The translations under genes were made by a program, and so were the position numbers. DNA of 64,000 nt, taken from assembly GCF_013366925.1 (NCBI RefSeq), contig NZ_JAALDK010000001.1, positions 1,867,089 to 1,931,088 on the forward strand, written 5' to 3'. Below the pieces are notes generated by a model. It did no database searches. It was given only the letters and a program-made list of their open reading frames with translations, and was not told the origin of the DNA. Shown here piece after piece: positions 9,290 to 55,952 of this stretch. Position 1 is the first letter of the stretch. Each line of letters begins with the position of its first letter. The DNA is from Paraburkholderia youngii (GTDB taxonomy: Bacteria > Pseudomonadota > Gammaproteobacteria > Burkholderiales > Burkholderiaceae).

Positions 9290-10372
9290 TCAAGCGGTGA
9301 TTGAGGGGTAGTCGGTATAGCCCGCAGCGCCGCCACCATAAAGCGTGGCGAAGTCCGGCTGCGCGAGCTGCGCGCCGGTCTTCAGGCGTTCGACCAGATC
9401 GGGGTTGCTGATAAAGGCGCGGCCGAAGGCGAACAGGTCTGCCTTGCCCTCGTTGAGTCTGGAGGTGGCGAGTTCGAGGTCATAGCCGTTATTGGCCAGA
9501 TAGGTTTGCCTGAACCGGCGGCGCATCGCGTCATAGTCGAACGGTGCGACATCACGCTGGCCGCCGGTCGCACCCTCGACCACGTGCAGATAGACGATGC
9601 CCAGCGCGCTGAGCTGCCCGGCGATGTAGTCGTACTGCGGCTGAGGATCGCTGCAGGAAATGCCGTTTGCCGGCGACACGGGCGAGATGCGCACCCCGGT
9701 GCGGTCGGCGCCGATTTCTTGCATCACGGCGGCGACGACTTCCAGCAACAGGCGCGCGCGATTCTCGATCGAGCCGCCGTAGGCGTCAGTGCGCTGGTTG
9801 GCTCCGTCCTTGATGAACTGCTCCAGCAGATAACCGTTGGCGCCGTGGATCTCCACGCCGTCGAAGCCGGCTGCAATGGCGTTCGCCGCGGCCTGGCGGA
9901 AGTCGTTCACGATGCCCGGCAGTTCGGCGAGTTCCAGAGCGCGCGGTTCGGAGACGTCGGCAAATCCGTTGTTCACGAAGGTCTTGGTCGCTGCACGAAT
10001 GGCTGACGGTGCGACTGGCGCGGCGCCGCCCGGCTGCAGATCGATGTGCGCAACGCGGCCGACGTGCCAGAGTTGCGCGAAGATGCGCCCGCCCCTCGCA
10101 TGCACAGCCTCGGTGACCGTGCGCCAACCGGCGATCTGCTCGGGGGTGTACAAGCCGGGGGTGTCCTGATAGCCCTGCGCCTGCGCCGACACCTGAGTGG
10201 CCTCTGTGATGATCAGGCCGGCCGAGGCGCGCTGCGCGTAATAGGTCGCAGCCAGCTCGCTGGGCACCAGCCCCACGCCGGCGCGGTTGCGGGTCAGCGG
10301 CGCCATGACAAGGCGATTGGCGAGGGTAAGACGGCCCAGGGTGTAGGGCTCGAAAAGCGTCTTGTCGGTCAT
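9290..10372 (-). CDS. nemA: Old Yellow Enzyme family alkene reductase (NemA-like)
   Basis: The 360-residue FMN protein starts MTDKTLFEPYTLG and shows the family order: LTRNRAG, WHVGRVAH, the substrate pair His/Asn in EIHGANGYLLEQF, and SIENRARLLLEV. Known members reduce the C=C bond of enones, N-ethylmaleimide, nitrate esters or nitroaromatics with NADPH. It leads the operon, next to a divergent TetR gene, which matches the nemR-nemA style of control by electrophiles. A longer start 29 codons upstream would run through the operator region and is less likely. Confidence 0.92.
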   Translation of the reverse strand: MTDKTLFEPYTLGRLTLANRLVMAPLTRNRAGVGLVPSELAATYYAQRASAGLIITEATQVSAQAQGYQDTPGLYTPEQIAGWRTVTEAVHARGGRIFAQLWHVGRVAHIDLQPGGAAPVAPSAIRAATKTFVNNGFADVSEPRALELAELPGIVNDFRQAAANAIAAGFDGVEIHGANGYLLEQFIKDGANQRTDAYGGSIENRARLLLEVVAAVMQEIGADRTGVRISPVSPANGISCSDPQPQYDYIAGQLSALGIVYLHVVEGATGGQRDVAPFDYDAMRRRFRQTYLANNGYDLELATSRLNEGKADLFAFGRAFISNPDLVERLKTGAQLAQPDFATLYGGGAAGYTDYPSITA

Positions 10373-10407
10373 GTTTGCGTCAGGTTCGAGGTTGGGAACA
10401 GGACCAA

Positions 10408-10450
10408 TGATGACGATCATAATCAAAACTGTCAAGGTTTTGATGACGAT
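10408..10450. promoter_or_regulatory. palindromic operator between nemA-like operon and TetR gene
   Basis: A perfect inverted repeat ATCAAAAC-N7-GTTTTGAT lies at 10422-10444. It is flanked by direct copies of TGATGACGAT at 10408-10417 and 10441-10450, spaced 33 bases (about three helical turns). It sits in the divergent promoter region and is the likely site of the TetR protein encoded at 10503. Confidence 0.6.
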
Positions 10451-10502
10451 CGACATCAATGTATAATGAAGCCTTCACACATGAACCCATCGTGGCCAGA
10501 CC

Positions 10503-17296: not shown

Positions 17297-18385
17297 TTAT
17301 TGCTGGTCGCCTGTCGGTACAAAGACCATGCCGTGCGGATTGGCCAAATTGGTGACCAGCGGTAGAAGCGCTCCGCTCCGCAGATCGAGTTGGCCAACAT
17401 AAGCCGGCACTGCCGGCGTGCTACCCGTAGCGGCCACTCCCGTCGAGGCGGAGAAAGCTGCGTCACGCTGCCAGACATTGGCGCTGATCTTGTACACCAT
17501 GTTGGCTTTCGTATCGGACACCAGCAGGTAGCCCCGTCGCGCAGTGGCGAATACCGTGTCGTCAACCTGCACGTTGCCGAGAAGTGGCAGATATTGCACG
17601 CGCGGTTCATCGCCCGACGTGCGTAATAGGACAAGCTGGCCATCTCCTTGATCATCGAGCAGTACATCGCCCGACGGCGTTAGCGTCATTGAATCCGGAT
17701 CGGTCAGGTTGAGGGTCGCCACCGTGCCAAACGGAATGTTCCTGGCGTCGAGCGAGCCGCTCATAACCGGCGTGACGTCGATCCTGTAGCTGTTTGCGTC
17801 AAGGTGCACAACGCGAACAATCGCGGGCCCCGTATTCTTGCCACTAGCGTTAAGGGTGGGATTGGACGCACTGAAGTAGGCCTGGCCGTCCTTGAACACG
17901 ATGTCGTCATAGCCGCCACCGTGCAGCGTTTTGGCGAAGGAATACGGCTTGGAGGCCTGGCCGGTCGCGGGATTGATGATGACGAGGTTCGGATTCGCAT
18001 CCTCGTTCTGCATCGCCCAGATCTCGCGCGTGTACGGATTGACCTTCAGGCCATCGTTGTGTCCCGCGACTTGATACGTTTTCACGACGCTGCCGTCCAG
18101 CGTGTATTCGACAATCACGCTCATTGCGCCATTCGAGCCATCCGGTGCGCCGTTGTTTGCATAGCCGACCCAAACGTGATCATCAAGCACGGCCAGTGAG
18201 TCAGGTGCGCTCATCAGCCCGCCTCAACCCGTCGCGAACACGGCCATGCTAAAACCCGGAGTGACGAGCGGCTTCGCCGAGGTCTGCGCGTCGGCGGCAC
18301 CAGCCGCGAAGCAGAATGCGGTGAACACTAGCGCGGTGCGGCCGAAAATGCGGCTTGTTGCGTAAAGGGGGTGAATGCTTCGCAT
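17297..18385 (-). pseudogene. secreted beta-propeller-like protein interrupted by an in-frame TGA
   Basis: A start after AGGAG at 18385 gives a signal peptide (FGRTALVFTAFCFAAGAADA, cleavage near ADA-QT) and PGFSMAVFATG, then TGA at 18224-18226 in the same frame. Four codons later the frame resumes with MSAPDSLAVLDDHVWVGYAN and stays open for 305 residues: SNGAMSVIVEYTLDGSVVK, GGGYDDIVFKDGQAYFSAS, LTDPDSMTLTPSGDVLLDD and LANPHGMVFVP. The repeated strand pattern fits an NHL/SMP-30-like propeller acting in the periplasm. A single base change explains the stop. Internal re-initiation would give a protein without signal peptide. Confidence 0.75.
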
Positions 18386-19576: not shown

Positions 19577-21385
19577 TCAGTGACGTTGTTCCAGCCTCAC
19601 AAAGAGGCCTTCCGGGAACATCGTGAACTCAAATATCTCGTCCACAGCGGCGGTTCGGTCAGTTGCCTGGGATATGTTGAAATTGCGGCACATCATTGCG
19701 AGCGCCGATTTAACTTCCATCAGGGCGAGCTTGCGACCCGGACACAACCGGGGTCCTGAGCCGAATGGAACGAAACCTACCTGATGGCTGCTCGTCGCAC
19801 CGGACGCGCCGAGCCAACGGTCAGGGTCAAATGTTCGCATTGGGGAAACGCTACCTGGTTGCAGCGCGGGCTGTCGCGTCAAGAGCGTCAGCACCGTACC
19901 CTTGGGAATTGCGATGCCATTTAACTGGACATCGAAATTCGGCTCGAAACTGGTAACCGGGGAAACCGGCTTCAGACGCATGGTCTCTTTGGTTACCGCG
20001 TCAAGATACACGAGATCATCAAGTGCATCCGCGTCTTCGAGTATTGCGCCCTCCCCGATGACAGAATCGACCTCAGCTTGCATTTTGTTCTGGACTTCGG
20101 GGTGAGTGCACATGTGATACGCGATCCAGGCGATCGTATTGGCGGTCGTGTCCTCGCCGGCCAGCAGTATCGTGAAAACATTTGCCATCACTTCTTCGTC
20201 CGTTAGCGGTGCCTCTCCTTCCTCTTGCGCCGTGAGCAACGCCTCAAGGAGGTTCGAAGGAAGCGCGTCAGTGATCGCGTCTTGCATCAATCGGGCGCGA
20301 TTGCGTGTGATGAGAACCTGTGTCAGAGCCCGCACGGCCACCAGAGCCCGGTCAAGTTGCCTGTCCGGTGCCAGTTTGAAGTAGTGCCAATAGGGGAACG
20401 GGGCAATTATCCGTCGCTGAATCATTGGAAACATCACTGCGAGGTGCTGCTGGATGATTTCGCCATCACTCTGGAGGGTGTCCATGTCATAGCCGAACGC
20501 AAGATTCGTCGCCACGTCCACTGTGTAGCGCATGAGCTCCTGGCGAATGTTTACGGATTGACGATTACGCGCGACTGTCTCCCATCGACTAAGTAGCCGC
20601 GAGGTCATCATGCGCATCGAGGGAAAGAATGCGCGAAGGTGGACCGGGTCAAGTGCCTTGACGACGAGTTGTCGCTGTCTCCTCCAGGTATCGCCCTCTG
20701 CCGAAAACACGCCATCAACACCAATTTCATGCGCGACGCGCTGGATTACGTCCCAGCGGCGATAGGTGCCCGGCCGGTCGTGGAGGACCTGATTGACGAG
20801 AACCGGATCTGCAATCGCAACGAATCTCCGACCCATTAGCGTGTAGGTGTACATGCTGCCGAACTCTCTACACCAGTTCTCGAGCAGCAAATGCAACTGG
20901 CGGGTCCTGAAGTCCAGAAGGTTGCCAAGGAGCGGAACACCCTTCGGTCCCGGAAGCTGCTTAACGCTACGAACCGGTGATGGGCGGGCGGCCTGCTCGA
21001 CAGCAGCCGCGCAGGAGGATTGTTGCGCCTTCCATGCAAGCACTTCATTTCGATCAACCTTTATTTCCCCGTTTTCGATAATTGCTTCGAATCGCTTCAG
21101 ATCTGAAGTGCTGATACCGCGCCTCTGTCCCGATAGACAGGCGAATTGCCAACCGTGCCCCCTGCAAGTAAGTACGTCGTCCTTTAATGCGCCCTCTGAC
21201 AACAGGGTACCCTCGTGCGGACATCGGCCCTGGTAAATGCAGACGCCTTGGGCGTGCCTGATAACAACCAGATCAATTCCGTCGAGGTGAGCCGCCTGGA
21301 CGTTTTCGTCCTCCAGGTCTTTCGTCCGTGCGACGACTACCGAATCTTCCGGGGCCGGCTTTACGATCTGAAGAGTTGAACTCAT
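19577..21385 (-). CDS. Rieske [2Fe-2S]-cytochrome P450 fusion protein
   Basis: From MSSTLQIVKP the protein has 602 residues. Residues 1-120 form a Rieske ferredoxin domain with CPH at 55-57 and CRGH at 74-77, the four cluster ligands. A linker leads to a complete P450 starting LPGPKGVPLLGN near 142, with the I-helix LAGEDTTANTIAW, the ExxR helix KETMRLKPV, FDPDRWLG, and the heme loop FGSGPRLCPGRK with Cys548. Electrons would pass from a reductase to the tethered Rieske cluster and on to heme. Most bacterial P450s use separate ferredoxins, so the fusion is notable. A longer frame upstream lacks protein character. No dedicated reductase is adjacent. Confidence 0.92.
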   Translation of the reverse strand: MSSTLQIVKPAPEDSVVVARTKDLEDENVQAAHLDGIDLVVIRHAQGVCIYQGRCPHEGTLLSEGALKDDVLTCRGHGWQFACLSGQRRGISTSDLKRFEAIIENGEIKVDRNEVLAWKAQQSSCAAAVEQAARPSPVRSVKQLPGPKGVPLLGNLLDFRTRQLHLLLENWCREFGSMYTYTLMGRRFVAIADPVLVNQVLHDRPGTYRRWDVIQRVAHEIGVDGVFSAEGDTWRRQRQLVVKALDPVHLRAFFPSMRMMTSRLLSRWETVARNRQSVNIRQELMRYTVDVATNLAFGYDMDTLQSDGEIIQQHLAVMFPMIQRRIIAPFPYWHYFKLAPDRQLDRALVAVRALTQVLITRNRARLMQDAITDALPSNLLEALLTAQEEGEAPLTDEEVMANVFTILLAGEDTTANTIAWIAYHMCTHPEVQNKMQAEVDSVIGEGAILEDADALDDLVYLDAVTKETMRLKPVSPVTSFEPNFDVQLNGIAIPKGTVLTLLTRQPALQPGSVSPMRTFDPDRWLGASGATSSHQVGFVPFGSGPRLCPGRKLALMEVKSALAMMCRNFNISQATDRTAAVDEIFEFTMFPEGLFVRLEQRH

Positions 21386-21820
21386 GTTCGCGCTCGTTCC
21401 CAATGAAGCGCCCTCATCACGGGCAGGAGGGCGCGAAAGACCGTTTGGCTTTGTCGCGGTCCCGCTCGGGAAGGGTCGAACCAGCTGCCAGAAAGGTGCG
21501 GGACCGCGACGCGGGAGGAGTATGGCAGCAACCGCGAGCGCCAGAAGTTCGGCGGACGGCCTTAACTGCATGAACCCCTGCACCGGCATCGCGTGTGAAT
21601 CTTCGAGCGCACCAGGATGCGCTCTGTGACTGCATGATAGCTGTCCCATGCTACCAGCCAAGTGAACTTTCTAGTTTCACGCCGCCCTTCTAAAGCTGTC
21701 ACCGACAGATCCTGGAACTCCGCCCACAGCCCCTTGTTGCGGTGCTTTGACGGAGTGTGGTGGCACCAGCGTGCGAAAGGGGACACCGCCATTTGATCAG
21801 CTTGTGCTCTGGCCACATAT
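21386..21820. other. upstream region of the Rieske-P450 gene, no gene seen
   Basis: The frame of the P450 stays open for 92 codons here but reads as non-coding. Part of 21640-21820 may be insertion-sequence debris. Confidence 0.45.
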
Positions 21821-22278: not shown

Positions 22279-22791
22279 GTGAACGTGAGTGCCGCACAAC
22301 GAGCACTCATGCCGCTCGCCGACGTTCACTACTGGAGGCAAGCGATTAACAACACCTTGAAGCACTTCGGCACATGCGGACTTTTTGCGCTGCCAGCGCT
22401 CTTCACTATGCATCCCGCGCTTGCCCAGAACAAGCTCGTCACGGATGCGAATGCAACATGGAACAAAGGCGACGCTCACGGGCTCGCCGCGCTATACGAC
22501 GAAAAGGCGATCGTATCGCGGGGTAACGGCAAGATCGTTCAAGGGCGCGACGAAATAGAGAAGCTCTTCAAGAGCCACTTCGATGCCGGCGTTCACGATT
22601 ACGCGATCGACGTGGTGCGCGCGAGCCAGGTCGGCAACGTGATGTACGAAACGGCCGACTGGACTGCGGTGCAGGAGAAGGATGGCAAGAAGCCGCAATA
22701 CAAAGGCGTATTGCTAAAGGTGATGACGAGGAGCACGGACGGCAAGTGGCGCACGATCGCGCACACGTGGAATGCGGAAGAGAACAAGTGA
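22279..22791 (+). CDS. secreted SnoaL/NTF2-like protein (DUF4440 type)
   Basis: The C-terminal 120 residues have the NTF2-like cone fold pattern: VTDANATWNKGDAHGLAALY, DEKAIVSRGNGKIVQGRDEI, and TRSTDGKWRTIAHTWN. A hydrophobic stretch TCGLFALPALFTMHPALAQ ends in an AxA-like site, so the protein is probably exported. The GTG start used here puts 30 residues before this stretch; a later start is likely. Such proteins bind or turn over small molecules; the ligand is unknown. It lies between the P450 and the acyl-CoA ligase, transcribed away from the P450. Confidence 0.8.
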   Translation: MNVSAAQRALMPLADVHYWRQAINNTLKHFGTCGLFALPALFTMHPALAQNKLVTDANATWNKGDAHGLAALYDEKAIVSRGNGKIVQGRDEIEKLFKSHFDAGVHDYAIDVVRASQVGNVMYETADWTAVQEKDGKKPQYKGVLLKVMTRSTDGKWRTIAHTWNAEENK

Positions 22792-23091: not shown

Positions 23092-24798
23092 ATGACGACA
23101 CCGCTGCTCGGACAGATGATGGACGTGCCGCTGACGGTTTCCTCACTGCTGGCCCATGCGTCACGGCACTTCGGCACTACCGAGATCGTGTCAAAGCGCA
23201 TCGAAGGCGACGTACATCGCTACACGTATCGCGACTGCGAAAAGCGCGCGAAGCAACTGGCGCAGGCGCTTATCGCGCTGGATGTGCAGCCGGGCGAACG
23301 GATCGGCACGCTGGCATGGAACGGTTACCGCCATCTGGAAGCCTATTACGGCACGACGGGCTTCGGGGCTGTGTGTCATACCATCAACCCCCGGCTCTTC
23401 CCCGAGCAGATCGCATGGATCATCAACGACGCCGATGACAGCTACGTGCTGTTCGATACGACGTTCTCGCAGCTGATTGAATACCTTGCGCCCCTCTGTC
23501 CCAAGGTGTGTGGGTGGATCGCGCTTGCCGACGACGCGCATCTACCTGCGGTGCAGACGCCCATACCGCTCATCAGCTATGAGACGTTTCTCAAGCCGCA
23601 CGACGGCGCATTCGACTGGCCGCTCCTCGACGAGCGCCAGGCATCGTACCTTTGTTACACCTCGGGCACGACGGGCAATCCAAAGGGCGCGCTGTATTCG
23701 CATCGCTCCACGGTGCTGCACGCGTACGCCGGTGCGCTGCCGGATGCGATGTGTCTATCGGCGCACGACTCGGCGTTGCCTGTCGTGCCGATGTTTCATG
23801 CGAACGCATGGGGCATTCCGCATGCCGCGCCGCTCACGGGCGCGAAACTCGTCCTTCCGGGCAAAGATCTCGACGGTAAATCCCTTTTCGAGCTGATGCA
23901 GGCGGAGCGCGTCACGTATTCCGCCGGCGTGCCAACCGTCTGGCTTGGCCTGCTCAACTACATGAAGGAAGCGGGCGTGCGGTTGTCGTCACTGCAACGC
24001 GCGGTGATCGGCGGGTCCGCGTGCCCGCCGGCGATGCTGCGCACCTTCGAGGAATACGGCGTCGAAGCCATTCACGGATGGGGCATGACCGAGATGTCAC
24101 CGCTCGGCACGCTCGCAAAACTCAACTGGGAACAATCACAGCGGCCGCCGGAAGAGCAGCGCAGGCTGCGCGAAAAGCAGGGGCACGTGATCTACGGCGT
24201 GGACATGAAGATCGTCGGCGACGATGGGCGCGACCTGCCGTGGGACGGCATCGCGTTCGGCGAACTGCACACGCGCGGTCCGTGGGTGATCAAGCGGTAT
24301 TTCCAGAAGGATGACTCGCCGCTCGTCGACGGCTGGTTTCCGACCGGCGACGTGGCCACGATCGACGGGGACGGTTTTATGCGGATCACCGACCGCAGCA
24401 AGGATGTGATCAAGTCGGGAGGCGAGTGGATCAGTTCGATCGAAATCGAGAACATCGCGATCGCGCATCCGGGCGTCGCAGAGGCAGCCTGCATCGCCTG
24501 CGCCCATCCGAAGTGGCTGCAGCGGCCGCTGCTCGTCGTCGTCAAACGCAAGGACGCGGAGGTCACGCGCGACGAACTGCTCGCGTTCTACGAGGGCAAG
24601 GTCGCGAAGTGGTGGATGCCCGATGACGTTATCTTCGTCACCGAATTGCCGCATACGGCCGTTGGAAAGCTGCACAAACTGAAGCTGCGCGAGCAGTTCA
24701 GCGACCACCTGCTGGCGTCGGCGCTCGAAGTTGAGCCCTGTCCCCTTGCCGACGAGCGCGCAATGGAAGGCGCCGGGTCAAAACCTGCGGCGGAATAA
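23092..24798 (+). CDS. acyl-CoA synthetase (AMP-forming, AlkK/FadD-like)
   Basis: A GGGAGA precedes the ATG. The 568-residue protein has the ANL-superfamily motifs in order: [19 protein letters not shown] near residue 187 for ATP binding, the adenylation loop [12 protein letters not shown], and [20 protein letters not shown] then [15 protein letters not shown] at the hinge. It ends with [12 protein letters not shown], holding the catalytic Lys. It activates a medium- or long-chain carboxylic acid to its CoA thioester. It has no adjacent beta-oxidation genes. The preceding P450 and following binding protein might belong to the same catabolic programme, but this is not shown. Confidence 0.93.
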
Positions 24799-27087: not shown

Positions 27088-28161
27088 TCAAACAGGTTTC
27101 GCGCTCACATATCCCTTTTGGTACGGCCGGTCATGGGCTAGCACCGCCCAGATCGTCCGCGCCATCTTGTTGGCTAGCGCGACGATCACCACATTCTTCG
27201 GCCTGCGCTTCTGCATCCGCTCGACCCACCGGTCGGGCTCCTTCGCATGCGTCAATACTGCTAGTGCGCCGTGAATTAGTAGTGTGCGTAGATAGGTATC
27301 GCCGCGCTTCGATATACCGTGCAGGTTCACCTTGCCGTCGGAGCCGGTCTGCTTCGGTACAAGACCGGCCCATGCCGCAAACTCGCGGCCAGACCGGAAT
27401 GCCTTCGCATCACCCATCGTCGCCACGGCTGCGGTTGCCGTGAGCAATCCAACTCCAGGAATCTCGCTGATCGCCTTCACCGCCTTGTCTTCCTTTTTCC
27501 ACTCGCGCATGCGCCGGTCGATCTCTGCAATCTGCTCGTCCAGCTTTGCCAAGCCGCTCCACTGTTCGCGAAATGTATCGATCAATGAAGCAGGCAGACG
27601 CGCAGCAATCCGCTCAAACACGGTGGGTATTTCCTTGTCCAGCTTGTCCCGACTCTTGCTCATGACTTCGCCGTATTCCGTCAGCAATCCTCTCAGTCCG
27701 TTGCTCTGCATCGTGCGAAACTTGATCAATTGCTGCCGCATCCGGTGCAGTGCCAGCATGGCCTGCTGCATCTCGGTCTTCACCGCCACCGGCTTGCCGG
27801 GTTGTTGCGCAGCCATCCAGATCGCCCTGGCATCCGCCGCATCATTCTTATTCCTGATGTTGAACGCCTTCACGAACTCCGCCGCCATCAGCTTTACCTG
27901 ATGGCCCATCTTCGTCAGTTGCCGGGCCCAGTGGTGCGCTCCGCCGCACGCTTCCATCCCGATCACGCACGGCGCACGGTTCGCAAAGAATTCGAGAAAC
28001 TTCGCCCGCTTGACCGGCTTGTTCACGATCTCGCCGGTTTCCTGATCGACGTAATGCACCTGAAACACCGACTTCGCGATATCGACGCCGACTGCCGTAC
28101 CATTGATCACTGGATCCTCCGGTTGCCTTGGAAAACTTCGCATTTTCCACCTTGGGTACAT
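27088..28161 (-). CDS. IS110/IS1111-family transposase
   Basis: The protein shows the DEDD nuclease domain at its N-terminus: VGVDIAKSVFQVHYVD, IGMEACGGAHHWARQL and KNDAADARAIWMAAQ. The C-terminal Transposase_20 domain follows: ISEIPGVGLLTATAAVATMG and HGISKRGDTYLRTLLIHGA with the conserved Ser region. A GTG at 28110 (VINGTAVG) is the more typical start. The element is intact and could be active. It belongs to the same family as the copy at 54601 and lies just downstream of the nitrile hydratase operon. Confidence 0.93.
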   Translation of the reverse strand: MYPRWKMRSFPRQPEDPVINGTAVGVDIAKSVFQVHYVDQETGEIVNKPVKRAKFLEFFANRAPCVIGMEACGGAHHWARQLTKMGHQVKLMAAEFVKAFNIRNKNDAADARAIWMAAQQPGKPVAVKTEMQQAMLALHRMRQQLIKFRTMQSNGLRGLLTEYGEVMSKSRDKLDKEIPTVFERIAARLPASLIDTFREQWSGLAKLDEQIAEIDRRMREWKKEDKAVKAISEIPGVGLLTATAAVATMGDAKAFRSGREFAAWAGLVPKQTGSDGKVNLHGISKRGDTYLRTLLIHGALAVLTHAKEPDRWVERMQKRRPKNVVIVALANKMARTIWAVLAHDRPYQKGYVSAKPV

Positions 28162-28666: not shown

Positions 28667-29323
28667 TCAGCACCTGTCCAGATACGGCTCCCAGCAATCG
28701 GCGCAAACGGAAGCGGCCGTGGTATCCCGGCCCCACAATTCGACGGCATCGAAGCTCACCGTGTACAGCCACTGTGGATCGTCGCCGCGGCCCACCGCGT
28801 TCGAATCAGGAAACACATGCGCGCCGTGCACTGCGACGACCCGGCCGCGCTTGCCACGGCAGTAACGCGGCAAGCGGGTGTGCGTTTGCGGGTTGAGCAG
28901 TCGCGTATGTACCTCGTCGCCGACGGCAAAACGGGCCGGATGCGGCGGCGTGCGCATCACGGGGCTCCCGCTAAAGAGCGCCTGGTTGACCTGGTCATGA
29001 GGCAGCACGCGTGGCACCGGCGCGGCGGGATGCCGTGATACGCCGGAGTCGATCTCGTCGGGCGTGGCGAGGCCCGAGTTGACCAGAAGCTTGCACAAGC
29101 CTGCAAACCAGATCTCGTAATAGCTGCTAGACAGATACTGCGCCGGCGGCAGGCTCTCGCGCGCAGCGCGCGACATATCGAGATTCCATGTGCCCGTCGC
29201 ACCCATCGTGATCGTCAGCGCGAGCACATGGCGCTCCCAGTCGGCGTGGAAGTAAGGTTCGTCGACCTCGGGCACGACCGGCCCGAACGACTGCATCCCG
29301 CCCAGATCCTGCGCGCCGTTCAC
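28667..29323 (-). CDS. nthB: nitrile hydratase beta subunit
   Basis: A GTG start overlaps the alpha-subunit stop in the sequence GTGA, so translation is coupled. The 218-residue protein begins [16 protein letters not shown], the family signature, continues with [19 protein letters not shown] and [14 protein letters not shown], and ends with a beta barrel: [39 protein letters not shown] and [10 protein letters not shown]. Beta forms the cup around the metal site of alpha and holds conserved Arg residues that contact the oxidised cysteines. The enzyme hydrates nitriles to amides in the cytoplasm. Confidence 0.93.
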
Positions 29324-30009
29324 GATGAACCTACGTTGGGGATTGTCGCCTGCTGCGCAGGGAGCGGTAAGCCTGTGCCGATCATCGAGTCGCGCGTGAC
29401 GAGATCGGCGAGTTCGTCTTCGTTCAGTGCGTCGGTGCCGGGCGGACGCATTGGCAGCACCAGATAGCGTACCTCGGCCGTCGAATCCCAAACGCGGATC
29501 TTGATGTCGTCCGGCAACGCTACGCCAAACTCCTCCAGCACGCCACGGGGGTCGATCACTGCGCGCGAGCGGTACGGCGCCGACTTGTACCAGACGGGTG
29601 GCAAGCCGAGCACGGGCCACGGGTAGCACGAGCACAGCGTGCAGACGACCATGTTGTGTATGCCCGGCGTGTTCTCCAGCGCAACCATGTGCTCGCCCTG
29701 ACGCCCCGCGAAGCCAAGTGACGCGATCGCGGCTGTCGCATCATCGAGCAGCCAGTGTCGAAATTCCGGATCGCTCCACGCCTTTGCGATGACGCGAGCG
29801 CCATTGCGCGGACCCACTTTCGTTTCGTAGGTTTCGATCAGTACGTCGAGCGCTTGCGGATCGACGTAGCCCTTCTCGATCAGAAGCGATTCGAGCGCAC
29901 GCACACGCAGATCCATGTCGGGTAGTGCGCTGCCCTCATGTCCTTCATGCACCTGAGGGTGTTGAGTCGCGTGATGCCGCGAAGGGTCATGTACGGGGTC
30001 GTGACTCAC
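29320..30009 (-). CDS. nthA: nitrile hydratase alpha subunit, cobalt type
   Basis: The GTG start at 30009 has AAGGGG before it and gives 229 residues with a His-rich head ([17 protein letters not shown]). The body has [18 protein letters not shown] and [18 protein letters not shown], and the metal motif [14 protein letters not shown] with Cys123, Cys126 and Cys128. Thr in VCTLCSC marks the cobalt form; iron enzymes have Ser there. Two of these cysteines are normally oxidised to sulfinic and sulfenic acid. An ATG ten codons upstream of the GTG lacks a ribosome site. It leads the operon alpha-beta-accessory. No amidase gene is adjacent. Confidence 0.93.
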
Positions 30010-30384
30010 CTGGATCCCCTTCGAGAATGCGACATTCATAGAGTATGGACGGGCAAGACGTTGAATGCAAACGGCCGACGCGCGGTTCCGGGCAGCACCA
30101 TCGATCAGTGCGACGCCCACCGGCGTCAGTTCCTGTCCGAACGTGATAATGCCCTTCTTATGCGTTGAGGCTCGTAAATGACCGTCGAACTCGACCCCGT
30201 GTGAGCCGTACGGACCCGGCAGGCCATCGGCTCGTACCGGGGACCGGTACCGGTCAATCATACCGAGCACCCAACGTTACGACATGCGGCAGTCGATGCT
30301 TACCAGCTCCAATGGTCGCGAGGGCTCATCCGCGCTGGCCGGAGAGGCCATGGCAAAGAACCCAATGACATAGTGAGACGATCG
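30010..30384. other. upstream region of the nitrile hydratase operon
   Basis: It should hold the operon promoter on the minus strand, but no clear -10/-35 pair was seen. It separates the operon from the second RidA relic. Confidence 0.4.
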
Positions 30385-52485: not shown

Positions 52486-54560
52486 AGGTGAGTAGCCCGC
52501 GGGAATCGCACCCGCAGGCCCTCTCAGAACCGGACGTGAATCTCTCAATTCATCCGGCTCCTATTGCCCACCGTTCTGCGCCAGAATCCAGTGAGCAAAC
52601 AGACCCGGCCGCTGATGTCTTATCTTGACCACCAGTTCCCGTGCCCGAGTCACTTTATCCTTTAGGCGCTTGTATTTCCTGCGCACCCACCGCACCGGGT
52701 ACTGATCCAACGAATCGAACACCGCGTACAGCGCCGAACGATAGAAGCGGCCATAATATTGCAGCCACCCTTTGAGCACAGGGTTGATCTCCTGCGCCAG
52801 GTCCGGCAATTCCACGGTGTGTCGGCAATGCAGTCGCCATCGACGCACTGTCTGGCGAATGGCTTTGGCAGCTTTTCGGCTGATCGCGGGCAGGAAGCTC
52901 ACGAACACCGTACCGGTGCGCGATCTTGCGAAGCGCGGTCGGAAGCAGAAGCCCAGGAAGTCAAACTGATGAACGCTAAAGCGCTCCCTCCGATTGTCAT
53001 CGCGACAGTAGACGACTTTCGTCTTCTGCGGATGCAAGGCAAGTGAGAACTGCGCCATCCGCTGCTCCAAGGCTGCCTTAAGCGCCTCTGCCTCCGCCAT
53101 GGTGCGACAGTGGCAAACTACATCATCGGCATAACGTTCGAACGGCACGCCCGGATAGGTGCGGCGCATCCATTCGTCGAACACGTAGTGCAGAAACAAA
53201 TTGGCCAACAACGGACTGATGACTCCGCCTTGCGGTGTGCCAGCGTCCCGCGGCTGCGTAGTGCCGTCTGCCAGACTGACCGGAGCCCGAAGCCACCGCT
53301 CAATGTACAGAAGCGTCACCCTGCACTTCGTGTGATGCCGTATCGCCTTCATCAGCAAGGCGTGATCGATGGAATCGAAGAACCCCTTGATGTCGAGATC
53401 AAGCACCCAGTCGTATTGCCAACAACGCACACGCGCCATGGCCACTGCCTGATGTGCCGACCGGCCCGGCCGGTAGCCGTAAGAGTCGGGATGGAAGCGC
53501 GGTTCCAGTTGTGGCTCAAGACGCTGTTTGACCACCATCTGAGCCACCCGGTCCGCGACGGTCGGTCTCCCCAACGGTCGCACACCGCCACCTGCCTTCG
53601 GAATCTCCACACGTCTAACCGGTGGAGGTTGATAACTTCCCGAGGCCAGTCGATTCCAGAGTTTATAAAGGTTGTCAGCCAACCTCGAATCGAACTCCTC
53701 GATCGTCTGCCGATCGACTCCAGCAGCGCCCCGGTTGGCCTTGACCTTCTTGTAGGCCTCCCACACTTCACGCTTGGAAATATCAAACGGTTTGGCATGC
53801 CGAGACAGATCCTCCCGTTGCCGGTTGTCTGCCTCGTCTTGCCGGGCAACGTCGCCCCTTCGGTCCAGCCCCATTACAGGGCCTTCCTCCCTACTACGGA
53901 CGACTCCGCCCCTGTGCCGCGCATCGGTACTCAGGCTCTTGCAGGGGCTGCCTGCTTGAGCTTCTCCCTTCGCATCGCGACGACAGGTTCCTGCGTTCCT
54001 CATTGAAGCCTGCGCTGGCGTCACGCCACCTTCATGCCGGACGCCAGACAGCCCGTCAACAGGCTCCGTCTGCCCTTGTCCCGGGGCATCCGTACCCCCC
54101 GGTTTTGGCGTCATCATGGGGTTTCGACACGTCATCAGTGGTTCACTCGCATTCGTCTCACCAGCACTCATCTGACAGAATTTCTCTCTGCCTTTTTCTC
54201 AACGCTTACCACGCGGACTCTTTACCCGCGCAGCTTGAGGTGATTTGAAGCCAACTCCTGCAAGCCGACTTCGAGGGGTCCGCCCTCATCTTCAACAAAG
54301 CATTGCTCACGCAACCGCTGCGCTTGCATTCGTAGCACACTATGGACACCGCCCGGTTTGCCAAGTCGATCTTGATGTGATGCCGTAACGAGGTATCGGC
54401 TGCGGTCTTATATCCGGCTTTACGCAGGCCGAAGCCGCGAGCCCTGATGGAATGCGCCAGGAGTGTCCTCATCTCGGCCGCGTGCTTCAGGCACAAGGCT
54501 GTGTTCAGGTTTGCACTCCTGCGGTCCGACCTGTTTTGCCATCACGGAGAATCAACCATA
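52486..54560 (-). mobile_element. group II intron (5' end not resolved)
   Basis: On the minus strand, directly after the maturase stop, lie domain V at 52527-52560 (GAGCCGGATGAA, loop, then ACGTCCGGTTC, with the AGC triad) and a domain VI hairpin with GCGGGTGCGATTCCCGCGGG, ending in GCTACTCAC near 52486. The upstream RNA domains must extend above 54171, probably to about 54500, but I could not fix the 5' end. Confidence 0.7.
52561..54171 (-). CDS. ltrA: group II intron reverse transcriptase/maturase
   Basis: The protein has an RT domain: FDISKREVWEAYKKVKANRG, then DLDIKGFFDSIDHALLMKAI, QGGVISPLLANLFLHYVFDE and the catalytic YADD in FERYADDVVCHC. A maturase domain X follows: LAQEINPVLKGWLQYYGRFY and RWVRRKYKRLKDK. 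No HNH endonuclease is present. The usual motif RPLGIPT reads RPLGRPT, a possible damaging change. The N-terminal 130 residues up to MGLDRRGD are low-complexity, so a later start is likely. The stop codon abuts intron domain V. Confidence 0.9.
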   Translation of the reverse strand: MSAGETNASEPLMTCRNPMMTPKPGGTDAPGQGQTEPVDGLSGVRHEGGVTPAQASMRNAGTCRRDAKGEAQAGSPCKSLSTDARHRGGVVRSREEGPVMGLDRRGDVARQDEADNRQREDLSRHAKPFDISKREVWEAYKKVKANRGAAGVDRQTIEEFDSRLADNLYKLWNRLASGSYQPPPVRRVEIPKAGGGVRPLGRPTVADRVAQMVVKQRLEPQLEPRFHPDSYGYRPGRSAHQAVAMARVRCWQYDWVLDLDIKGFFDSIDHALLMKAIRHHTKCRVTLLYIERWLRAPVSLADGTTQPRDAGTPQGGVISPLLANLFLHYVFDEWMRRTYPGVPFERYADDVVCHCRTMAEAEALKAALEQRMAQFSLALHPQKTKVVYCRDDNRRERFSVHQFDFLGFCFRPRFARSRTGTVFVSFLPAISRKAAKAIRQTVRRWRLHCRHTVELPDLAQEINPVLKGWLQYYGRFYRSALYAVFDSLDQYPVRWVRRKYKRLKDKVTRARELVVKIRHQRPGLFAHWILAQNGGQ

Positions 54561-54600: not shown

Positions 54601-55623
54601 TCAAGCTGGTCTTACACTGACGTGATTCGCTTCGTAATTGCTCTCGTGGGCCAGTATGGCCCAGGCAGTTCGTGCGATCTTGTTCGCCAGAGCGACGGCT
54701 GCCACGTTGGCGGGTCGCCGCTCCTGAATTCCTTTCTGCCACGCTGTGGGTGCCTTCGTGTGACACAGGACGGAGCGCGCTCCGTGCATCAGCAGCGTGC
54801 GCAGATAGGGATCGCCTCGCTTCGAGATGGAGCCCAATCGAATCTTCCCGCCCGTACCGCTTTGCCGCGGAACAAGACCGAGGAACGCAGCGAATTCACG
54901 TCCTGACCTGAAGGTCCTCGCGTCTCCGATTGTTGCTACCAGGGCCGTTGCGGTGAGCCTGCCGATGCCGGGCACGCCGGAAATCGCGCGACATGCCACT
55001 TCCTGTTTCTGCCAGGCACCAATGCGCTTCTCGAGTTGATCGATATCATCCTCAAGCGCGTTGATGCGTCGTAACTGGTCTTGCAGATCAAGCATGATCG
55101 ATGCTGGAAGTGCATCTTCCAATTCCGCCATGCGCTGCCTTACCTCGGCAAGCCCTGCCGCACGTCCTGTCCGAAACGTCACGCCAAATTCGTAGAGAAA
55201 CCCACGGAGTTGGTTCACCTGCATTGTTCGAAACTTGATGAGTTTCGAACGCATTCGGTGCAAGCTCAGCATCGCTTGCTGGTCTTCTGTCTTCGCTGCG
55301 ACGGTGCGCATTCCAGGTTGTTGAACGGCAGTCCATATCGCCTTCGCATCCGCCGCGTCGGTCTTGTTCGTTTGCACAAAGGGCCGGATAAACTGCGCGT
55401 GCAACAACACGACCTCGTGTCCCAGTGCCTGAATTTTACGTGCCCACCAGTGAGCGCTCCCGCACGCTTCAAGAGCGACACGCCCGGCGGGACGCTGAGC
55501 CAGAAACGCGATCAGATCATCGCGGCCAAAACGCCGATTCGCAATCTCGCCGGTTTGGGCGTCGACCCAGTACAACTGGAACACCCGCTTTGCAACATCC
55601 AGTCCGTACGTCGTAGCATTCAT
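54601..55623 (-). CDS. IS110/IS1111-family transposase, second copy
   Basis: The start MNATTYGLDVAKRVFQLYW gives 340 residues. The DEDD domain has VALEACGSAHWWARKIQ and NKTDAADAKAIWTAVQQ. The C-terminal domain has ISGVPGIGRLTATALVATIG and GSISKRGDPYLRTLLMHGAR. It is related to, but clearly different from, the copy at 27088. The frame is intact. Sequence above 55640 (GATGCCGTTCGG and a run ending TTGAGG) resembles the matching flank of the first copy, fitting subterminal ends of IS1111-type elements. Confidence 0.93.
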   Translation of the reverse strand: MNATTYGLDVAKRVFQLYWVDAQTGEIANRRFGRDDLIAFLAQRPAGRVALEACGSAHWWARKIQALGHEVVLLHAQFIRPFVQTNKTDAADAKAIWTAVQQPGMRTVAAKTEDQQAMLSLHRMRSKLIKFRTMQVNQLRGFLYEFGVTFRTGRAAGLAEVRQRMAELEDALPASIMLDLQDQLRRINALEDDIDQLEKRIGAWQKQEVACRAISGVPGIGRLTATALVATIGDARTFRSGREFAAFLGLVPRQSGTGGKIRLGSISKRGDPYLRTLLMHGARSVLCHTKAPTAWQKGIQERRPANVAAVALANKIARTAWAILAHESNYEANHVSVRPA

Positions 55624-55952
55624 TTGGGGCCTCCGTTCCTCAAGTGGTTGTGTCGCAACTCCACTTTGGCACATTGATGCCGTTCGGTTCTTGAGGCCCT
55701 CATTCATGCCCACCTCCCCGAAGGGAGGGCGGTGTCCATTCCATCTCGGCCGATCGGCGACTCATGCGAATCGCATATCCAGATCGTGCAGCGGGCGAAC
55801 GATGGTCGGCGGCACGCGACCCACAACGGCCCTTCTAGCCAATGCAAGGGTACGACCGGTTGCAGGCCGGAACGGCCATTCGCACGCTCTCCCCGCTGGC
55901 AAGTCCTCGGCCATTCCCTGTCAAGACGTTGCGGGTCACAGCCCACGCCGCC
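55624..55952. other. IS flank and dispersed repeat-like DNA
   Basis: From 55740 to 55940 the text is GGCCG-rich and, on the minus strand, yields RSGLQPVVPLHWLEGPLW, a repeat-like signature. No gene seen. Confidence 0.45.

Follow-up and report, generated by a model that had tools for sequence, protein, structure and literature searches.

A redox partner is fused to the P450 in CYP102 (P450 BM3) and CYP116B, whose chains include the reductase as well, at the C-terminal end. T4moC, the ferredoxin subunit of toluene-4-monooxygenase, is a free protein of 111 residues and serves a diiron oxygenase. According to passages of PMC9519919, the CYP51-ferredoxin of Methylococcus capsulatus consists of a P450 and a C-terminal ferredoxin in one chain, with no reductase domain. 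In XplA, as described in part of PMC8081977, an N-terminal flavodoxin is fused to the P450, and the reductase XplB is a separate protein. For DoxA, passages of PMC12979805 report two natural redox partners, a Rieske ferredoxin (SpFdx4) and a reductase (SpFdR3).

Here, we analyzed a 64,000-nucleotide stretch of Paraburkholderia youngii DNA (the window), in which a single gene encodes a Rieske-P450 fusion. This protein falls among the known fusions of P450 with a redox partner. It resembles CYP51-ferredoxin in that a P450 and a one-electron ferredoxin share a single chain from which a reductase domain is absent (passages of PMC9519919). The carrier of CYP51-ferredoxin, however, is C-terminal and was modelled in the same passages on adrenodoxin/putidaredoxin-like ferredoxins, whereas here it is a Rieske domain at the N-terminus. 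Moreover, CYP51-ferredoxin is a sterol demethylase, whereas the P450 half of the window protein is nearest by sequence to CYP3A and CYP97 chains, and CYP51 chains score below both. The N-terminal position of the carrier is shared with the XplA/XplB system; the carrier of XplA is a flavodoxin, and the Asp/Glu-Thr pair reported as lost there in part of PMC8081977 is kept here. Pfam finds Rieske as the N-terminal domain, so the N-terminal flavodoxin of the XplA type is not present. With DoxA/SpFdx4/SpFdR3 the protein would share a Rieske-type Cys2His2 [2Fe-2S] donor to a P450 and an unlinked reductase, the DoxA system being made of three separate proteins (passages of PMC12979805). The comparison with CYP102 and CYP116B differs in that only a carrier is attached here, and N-terminally. 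The original prediction described this tether as an uncommon electron entry route. Uncommon it is, but not unprecedented, since XplA and CYP51-ferredoxin also fuse carriers without a reductase (parts of PMC8081977 and PMC9519919). Databases hold such proteins under automatic names, for example 'cytochrome P450/nitrite reductase/ring-hydroxylating ferredoxin subunit'. No paper on a Rieske-P450 fusion was found among the matches listed from open-access PMC full text, a scope from which subscription journals and preprints may differ, and the passages of PMC12445004 and PMC12117332 hold nothing on it.

The frame running from 21385 to 19577 on the minus strand, a strand that the original prediction did not give, was translated into 602 residues free of stops (Table 1). 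The mechanical open reading frame extends upstream to a TTG at 21661; the ATG at 21385 coincides with the start of the 602-residue database copy P0002 from Paraburkholderia sp. BR13439, which differs from the window protein at 7 of 602 residues. Pfam placed a Rieske domain at residues 16-91 (50.5 bits, cut-off 20.3) in front of a p450 domain at residues 145-573 (273 bits, cut-off 22.8). No further Pfam family was found in the chain at E 0.001, and a flavin reductase domain is absent, Rieske and p450 being the only Pfam domains. The original prediction was thus right in its coordinates, length and motifs: a complete Rieske domain stands N-terminal to a complete P450 in one chain, and the ligands predicted as CPH and CRGH were found as C55-P-H57 and C74-R-G-H77. 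Judged by its CxH...CxxH ligands and Rieske domain, the protein is a member of the Rieske ferredoxins; judged by its heme-loop cysteine, ExxR and P450 fold, it is also a member of the P450 superfamily.

Table 1. Positions in the window of the fusion gene, its parts and the genes upstream of it
Feature	Position	Strand	Basis
Rieske-P450 fusion protein P0001, 602 aa	19577..21385	minus	Open frame; Pfam Rieske and p450; database copy P0002
Rieske [2Fe-2S] domain with flanks, residues 1-112, ligands C55/H57/C74/H77	21050..21385	minus	Pfam PF00355, alignment, T4moC match
Linker, residues 113-143, predicted helix 112-132	20957..21049	minus	AlphaFold2 model; dN/dS
P450 domain, residues 144-602; D412-T413, E467xxR470, C548	19580..20956	minus	Pfam PF00067, invariant residues, fold
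Divergent DUF4440/SnoaL-like gene, upstream of the fusion gene	22279..22791	plus	Pfam
AMP-binding ligase, upstream of the fusion gene	23092-24798		Pfam

In the search for relatives, 7999 candidates were scored, of which 2049 passed E 1e-3. Both Pfam domains occur in 113 of the best 120 of these 2049, so the domain order is conserved in protein databases, as the original prediction had proposed to check. That prediction had also considered that the close homologues might always be separate genes; this is not the case among these best relatives, and P450-only proteins are common further out. The other seven of the 120 contain a P450 only (P0003, P0030, P0069, P0115, P0118, P0119 and P0121), and the start of P0069 is probably mis-set because its first residues already fall within a Rieske domain. 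Of 113 proteins above 550 aa, counting the one from the window, 112 contain the motif with all four Rieske ligands; the sole exception is P0006, in which Gly replaces Cys74. Among the 112 proteins with four Rieske ligands, the heme-Cys motif was found in all except P0046 (111/112) and the stricter ExxR[LM] pattern in 97. In alignment A1, composed of 36 sequences hand-chosen from the matches, C55, H57, C74, H77, D412, T413, E467, R470 and C548 are invariant. The spacing from H77 to the PGP at the start of the P450, measurable in 109 of the 113 proteins, is 52-69 residues with a median of 64 and a 5-95% range of about 61-67. In ten pairs formed by five congeneric copies, dN/dS was 0.11-0.26 in the Rieske part and 0.04-0.18 in the P450, so that both are under purifying selection, and reached 0.2-0.6 in the linker; this is the pattern to be expected of two working domains with a looser tether between them. 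The AlphaFold2 model (mean pLDDT 82.9, pTM 0.77) has a helix at residues 112-132 between the domains, and the three ten-residue blocks of the linker have pLDDT values of 90, 64 and 65. Among 33 fused proteins, the Rieske distances correlate with those of the P450 (r = 0.74, a value that none of 2000 permutations reached), a correlation that kinship alone could cause.

The protein is probably a monooxygenase in which the N-terminal Rieske-type ferredoxin domain is tethered to the P450 as its electron donor, with an unlinked ferredoxin reductase as the most likely source of electrons, in line with the general ferredoxin reductase suggested in the original prediction. NAD(P)H would reduce such a reductase of the host, which would pass electrons to the tethered Rieske cluster and through it to the P450 heme, where activation of O2 would lead to oxidation of a probably lipophilic substrate. 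We favor this reading because both domains are complete, the ligands are kept, the domains are under purifying selection and diverge in a correlated way, and their order is constant and the linker similar in length. It is further favored because, among solved structures, the Rieske half is closest by sequence to the ferredoxin T4moC (PDB 4p1c, 1vm9; E 1.4e-10). DoxA with SpFdx4 and CYP51-ferredoxin provide precedents, and DoxA is, by analogy, the strongest outside support for the proposed electron path. The genome offers possible reductases as well: it has five places with Reductase_C (PF14759), none of them in the window, and at three of the five a P450 lies within about 5 kb. We take Reductase_C to be the domain of BphA4 and putidaredoxin reductase, and the five proteins are candidate electron donors to the fusion. 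The original prediction stated that no reductase is adjacent, and none of the 40 window ORFs scanned with Pfam, taken from 98 frames of at least 150 aa of which many are not genes, matched as a ferredoxin reductase. An NADH:flavin oxidoreductase-family protein is encoded at 9290-10459; it is presumably of a different kind. Elsewhere in the genome, at C1:1266354-1267850 (L144, L155), a 580-residue frame with an apparent Rieske domain and Reductase_C may be a Rieske-reductase fusion.

Several observations speak against a tethered carrier. P450-only genes are abundant (66 of the best 80 of at least 578 loci), and only one of the 66 has an adjoining free Rieske gene. In addition, P0006 lost Cys74, one relative is apparently split between the domains, and the Rieske half also matches oxygenases. 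Rieske potentials of +100 to +400 mV are given in part of PMC6237146, and values in this range would be unfavourable for P450 reduction unless the Rieske domain of the window is of the low-potential ferredoxin type. The resemblance to T4moC suggests, by analogy, that it is of this type. BphF is reportedly a low-potential Rieske ferredoxin, according to the title of one paper.

The fusion is rare and patchy across the genomes sampled. Within the genus (144 genomes), 66 genomes gave a match at E 1e-40, ten of them at fused length, including the genome of the window, and 56 of the 144 had P450-only matches alone. Among these P450-only matches, identity is 63% for the one in G108 and 38-43% for the remaining full-length ones. 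Three candidates were scored per genome in the family and phylum-wide draws. In the family draw, 13 of 398 genomes matched at E 1e-130, in 3 of 25 genera, and three of these 13 are among the ten of the genus; all 13 matches start at query residue 1-31 and hence cover the Rieske ligands. The phylum-wide draw at E 1e-100 gave the fusion in one of 398 genomes, that of the window itself, and a P450-only match in two others. Among the species genomes, the best 80 of at least 578 confirmed loci comprised 14 fused and 66 P450-only loci. The fused ones in this best-80 set come from Burkholderia, Paraburkholderia, Cupriavidus, Luteimonas and other Pseudomonadota including Porticoccaceae and Rhodoblastus, and, beyond Pseudomonadota, from Myxococcota, Acidobacteriota (Sulfidibacter), Planctomycetota (Uabimicrobium) and a Chloroflexota MAG. 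Plasmid records gave five matches at E 1e-90, one of them fused, on a megaplasmid of Methylorubrum extorquens AM1. A 1539-residue frame from Myxococcales (L055) was considered as a longer fusion and rejected, as its first ~950 residues look, by eye, like low-complexity, stop-free sequence.

The 75-row P450 tree mixes fused and P450-only entries, with 10 state changes, of which at least four are forced by well-supported branches. A single fused clade was rejected (AU p ~1e-66, on a quick P450 tree with a simple model). In the Rieske tree, a branch with a modest SH-aLRT support of 90 separates the 33 fused domains from 20 Rieske domains of the genome of the window and from the free Rieske of locus L029. 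The simplest reading of these trees is an old fusion whose Rieske part was repeatedly lost, a picture that unsampled free Rieske proteins could alter. The clearest apparent loss is that of P0030 from G108 (locus L136), which is 63% identical and Rieske-less and sits in a fully supported trio with the window copy and L017. Searched for a Rieske remnant, L136 and 20 further P450-only loci within the genus gave no match better than E 3.3. Some domain exchange is also possible: L023/L031 (Luteimonas saliphila and a MAG) stand beside P0101 on the Rieske tree but are placed well away from it by the P450 tree, and their identity to P0101 is 54-59% in the Rieske part and 45% in the P450. A Rieske-like frame lies in the flanks of three of the 66 P450-only loci in the best-80 set (L029, L071 and L080) and adjoins the P450 only at L029; full flanks were available for 40 of the 66, and in 26 they were shortened by contig ends. 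At L029 (7989-9823), the P450-only gene is followed by a free Rieske gene about 65 bases past its stop and then, by eye, by a methyltransferase-like gene. We considered this free Rieske as a split version of the fusion and rejected it, as it groups with two other Rieske domains of the genome of the window and not with the fused ones.

The P450-only relatives bear on a different role of the Rieske domain, namely that of a regulatory or structural module (a redox or oxygen sensor, or a stabilizing part) on a P450 fed by another ferredoxin or flavodoxin of the host. Such relatives apparently manage without Rieske, and since P0030 is nested in the fused group, the heme domain can be kept where this carrier is missing. 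Similarly, according to passages of PMC9519919, the CYP51 part of a carrier fusion was, once separated, driven by E. coli flavodoxin and flavodoxin reductase. We nevertheless consider this role unlikely, as the best solved relative of the domain is an electron-delivering ferredoxin, the ligands are kept in 112 of 113 proteins and the domain is under purifying selection. Fourteen positions separate 126 fused from 71 P450-only P450 domains. They were examined as a docking surface, and this idea was rejected; the Rieske-less P0030 is fused-like at 13 of the 14, which points to kinship instead.

The heme loop of the P450 half spans F541 to G550 and contains C548; E467 and R470 are present, and the I-helix carries D412-T413. 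By fold, the nearest structures were P450 BM3 (Foldseek E 7.2e-26), CYP505 and CYP97, and no NCBIfam model was matched above its cut-off by this half. The layout of an N-terminal carrier, a P450 and a separate reductase is like that of XplA (part of PMC8081977), so the fusion might carry out reductive instead of oxygenating chemistry. However, the Asp/Glu-Thr motif is apparently lost in XplA according to the same passages, whereas D412-T413 is invariant in the 36 aligned sequences and the (A/G)Gx(D/E)T(T/S) acid-alcohol motif occurs in 112 of 112 proteins with four Rieske ligands. This conserved pair favors oxygen activation, and we regard XplA-like reductive chemistry as improbable.

Among solved structures, the matches of the Rieske half next to T4moC are the oxygenases SxtDIOX (2.5e-8) and SxtT (2.1e-6), followed by two ferredoxins, CarAc and toluene dioxygenase ferredoxin; Rieske domains of oxygenases including 3-ketosteroid 9alpha-hydroxylase are matched too. 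These matches would agree with a Rieske part that belongs to a Rieske non-heme iron oxygenase and with two active sites in the chain. Barring an unrecognised iron site, we find this highly improbable, as Pfam shows only Rieske and p450, and a mononuclear iron domain would find no space in the ~31 residues between them. The fused domain stands apart from 12 longer proteins on the Rieske tree, with a support of 90-91; presumably, these are oxygenase subunits. With no mononuclear-iron catalytic domain in the chain and T4moC as the best match, the Rieske domain is, as far as its sequence indicates, of the carrier type. The net charge of the Rieske part is negative in 101 of 109 proteins, and that of the P450 has a mean of -4.0; these values would be informative only together with a surface model.

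A frameshift between the domains, raised in the original prediction, is not seen in the open frame of the window. In one relative of ~98% identity, the Rieske part (P0122, 139 aa) and the P450 (P0003, 439 aa) are read as two proteins, each listed for a contig of 813,123 bases that they presumably share; this looks like a frameshift, natural or due to a sequencing error, and leaves the window unaffected. It is the one observation in favor of an artefact in which two adjoining genes were joined by a lost stop or a frameshift, an explanation that is scarcely credible when both domains occur in 113 of the best 120 of 2049 relatives and in the same order in independent genomes of several phyla.

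If the Rieske domain does serve as the tethered electron donor, a Rieske centre joins the short list of natural P450-fused electron carriers, placed N-terminally. A Rieske-P450 that takes electrons from a general reductase could then serve as a half-self-sufficient biocatalyst. Since close relatives are both fused and Rieske-less, they form natural matched pairs in which the effect of carrier tethering on a P450 could be compared. Tentatively, and leaning slightly against it ourselves, we put forward that the fusion might represent a new class of electron supply, in which the covalent Rieske lets a P450 gene that stands alone and moves horizontally function in unrelated bacteria by using any ferredoxin reductase of its host, and side branches would repeatedly have lost, or exchanged, the carrier.

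Downstream of the fusion gene lies a frame (17297-18214) without a Pfam match. Two promoter-like sites were found against 1.1 expected, and no terminator-like site against 2.4 expected. A DUF4440 gene 72% identical to the one in Table 1 precedes the Rieske-less P450 of G108 (L136) in the opposite relative orientation, with 76.8% DNA identity over 611 columns, so the DUF4440-P450 pair may have moved together. Clustering of the flanking frames of 80 loci (the best of at least 578) gave no conserved neighbour beyond close kin, although calling by the longest frame is often antisense in G+C-rich DNA and may miss genes. Of 20 frames beside nine of the fused loci, four had no match in Pfam, and the others gave unrelated functions (a kinase, MukB, a TRAP transporter, an aldo-keto reductase, a sulfate permease and others). 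Five of the nine other fused copies in the genus (L128, L129, L130, L132 and L133) have common neighbours, which we take to be genes for bacterioferritin and for acyl-CoA dehydrogenase. The copy in the window is sited elsewhere.

On the M. extorquens AM1 megaplasmid NC_012811 (L156 70-9815), genes for a RhiE-like linker, an acyltransferase, an AMP-binding protein, a thioesterase and a DUF3047 protein lie upstream of the fusion in the same direction, and transposase genes follow. The PLSDB gene table is empty for this interval. The setting hints at an acyl or polyketide tailoring role at that locus; it was seen at no other examined locus and is not carried over to the window. The window itself also contains overlapping frames for the alpha and beta subunits of nitrile hydratase (28667-30270, minus strand), as well as two transposases of the IS110 type and the reverse transcriptase of a group II intron (27088-28161, 52561-54171 and 54601-55713).
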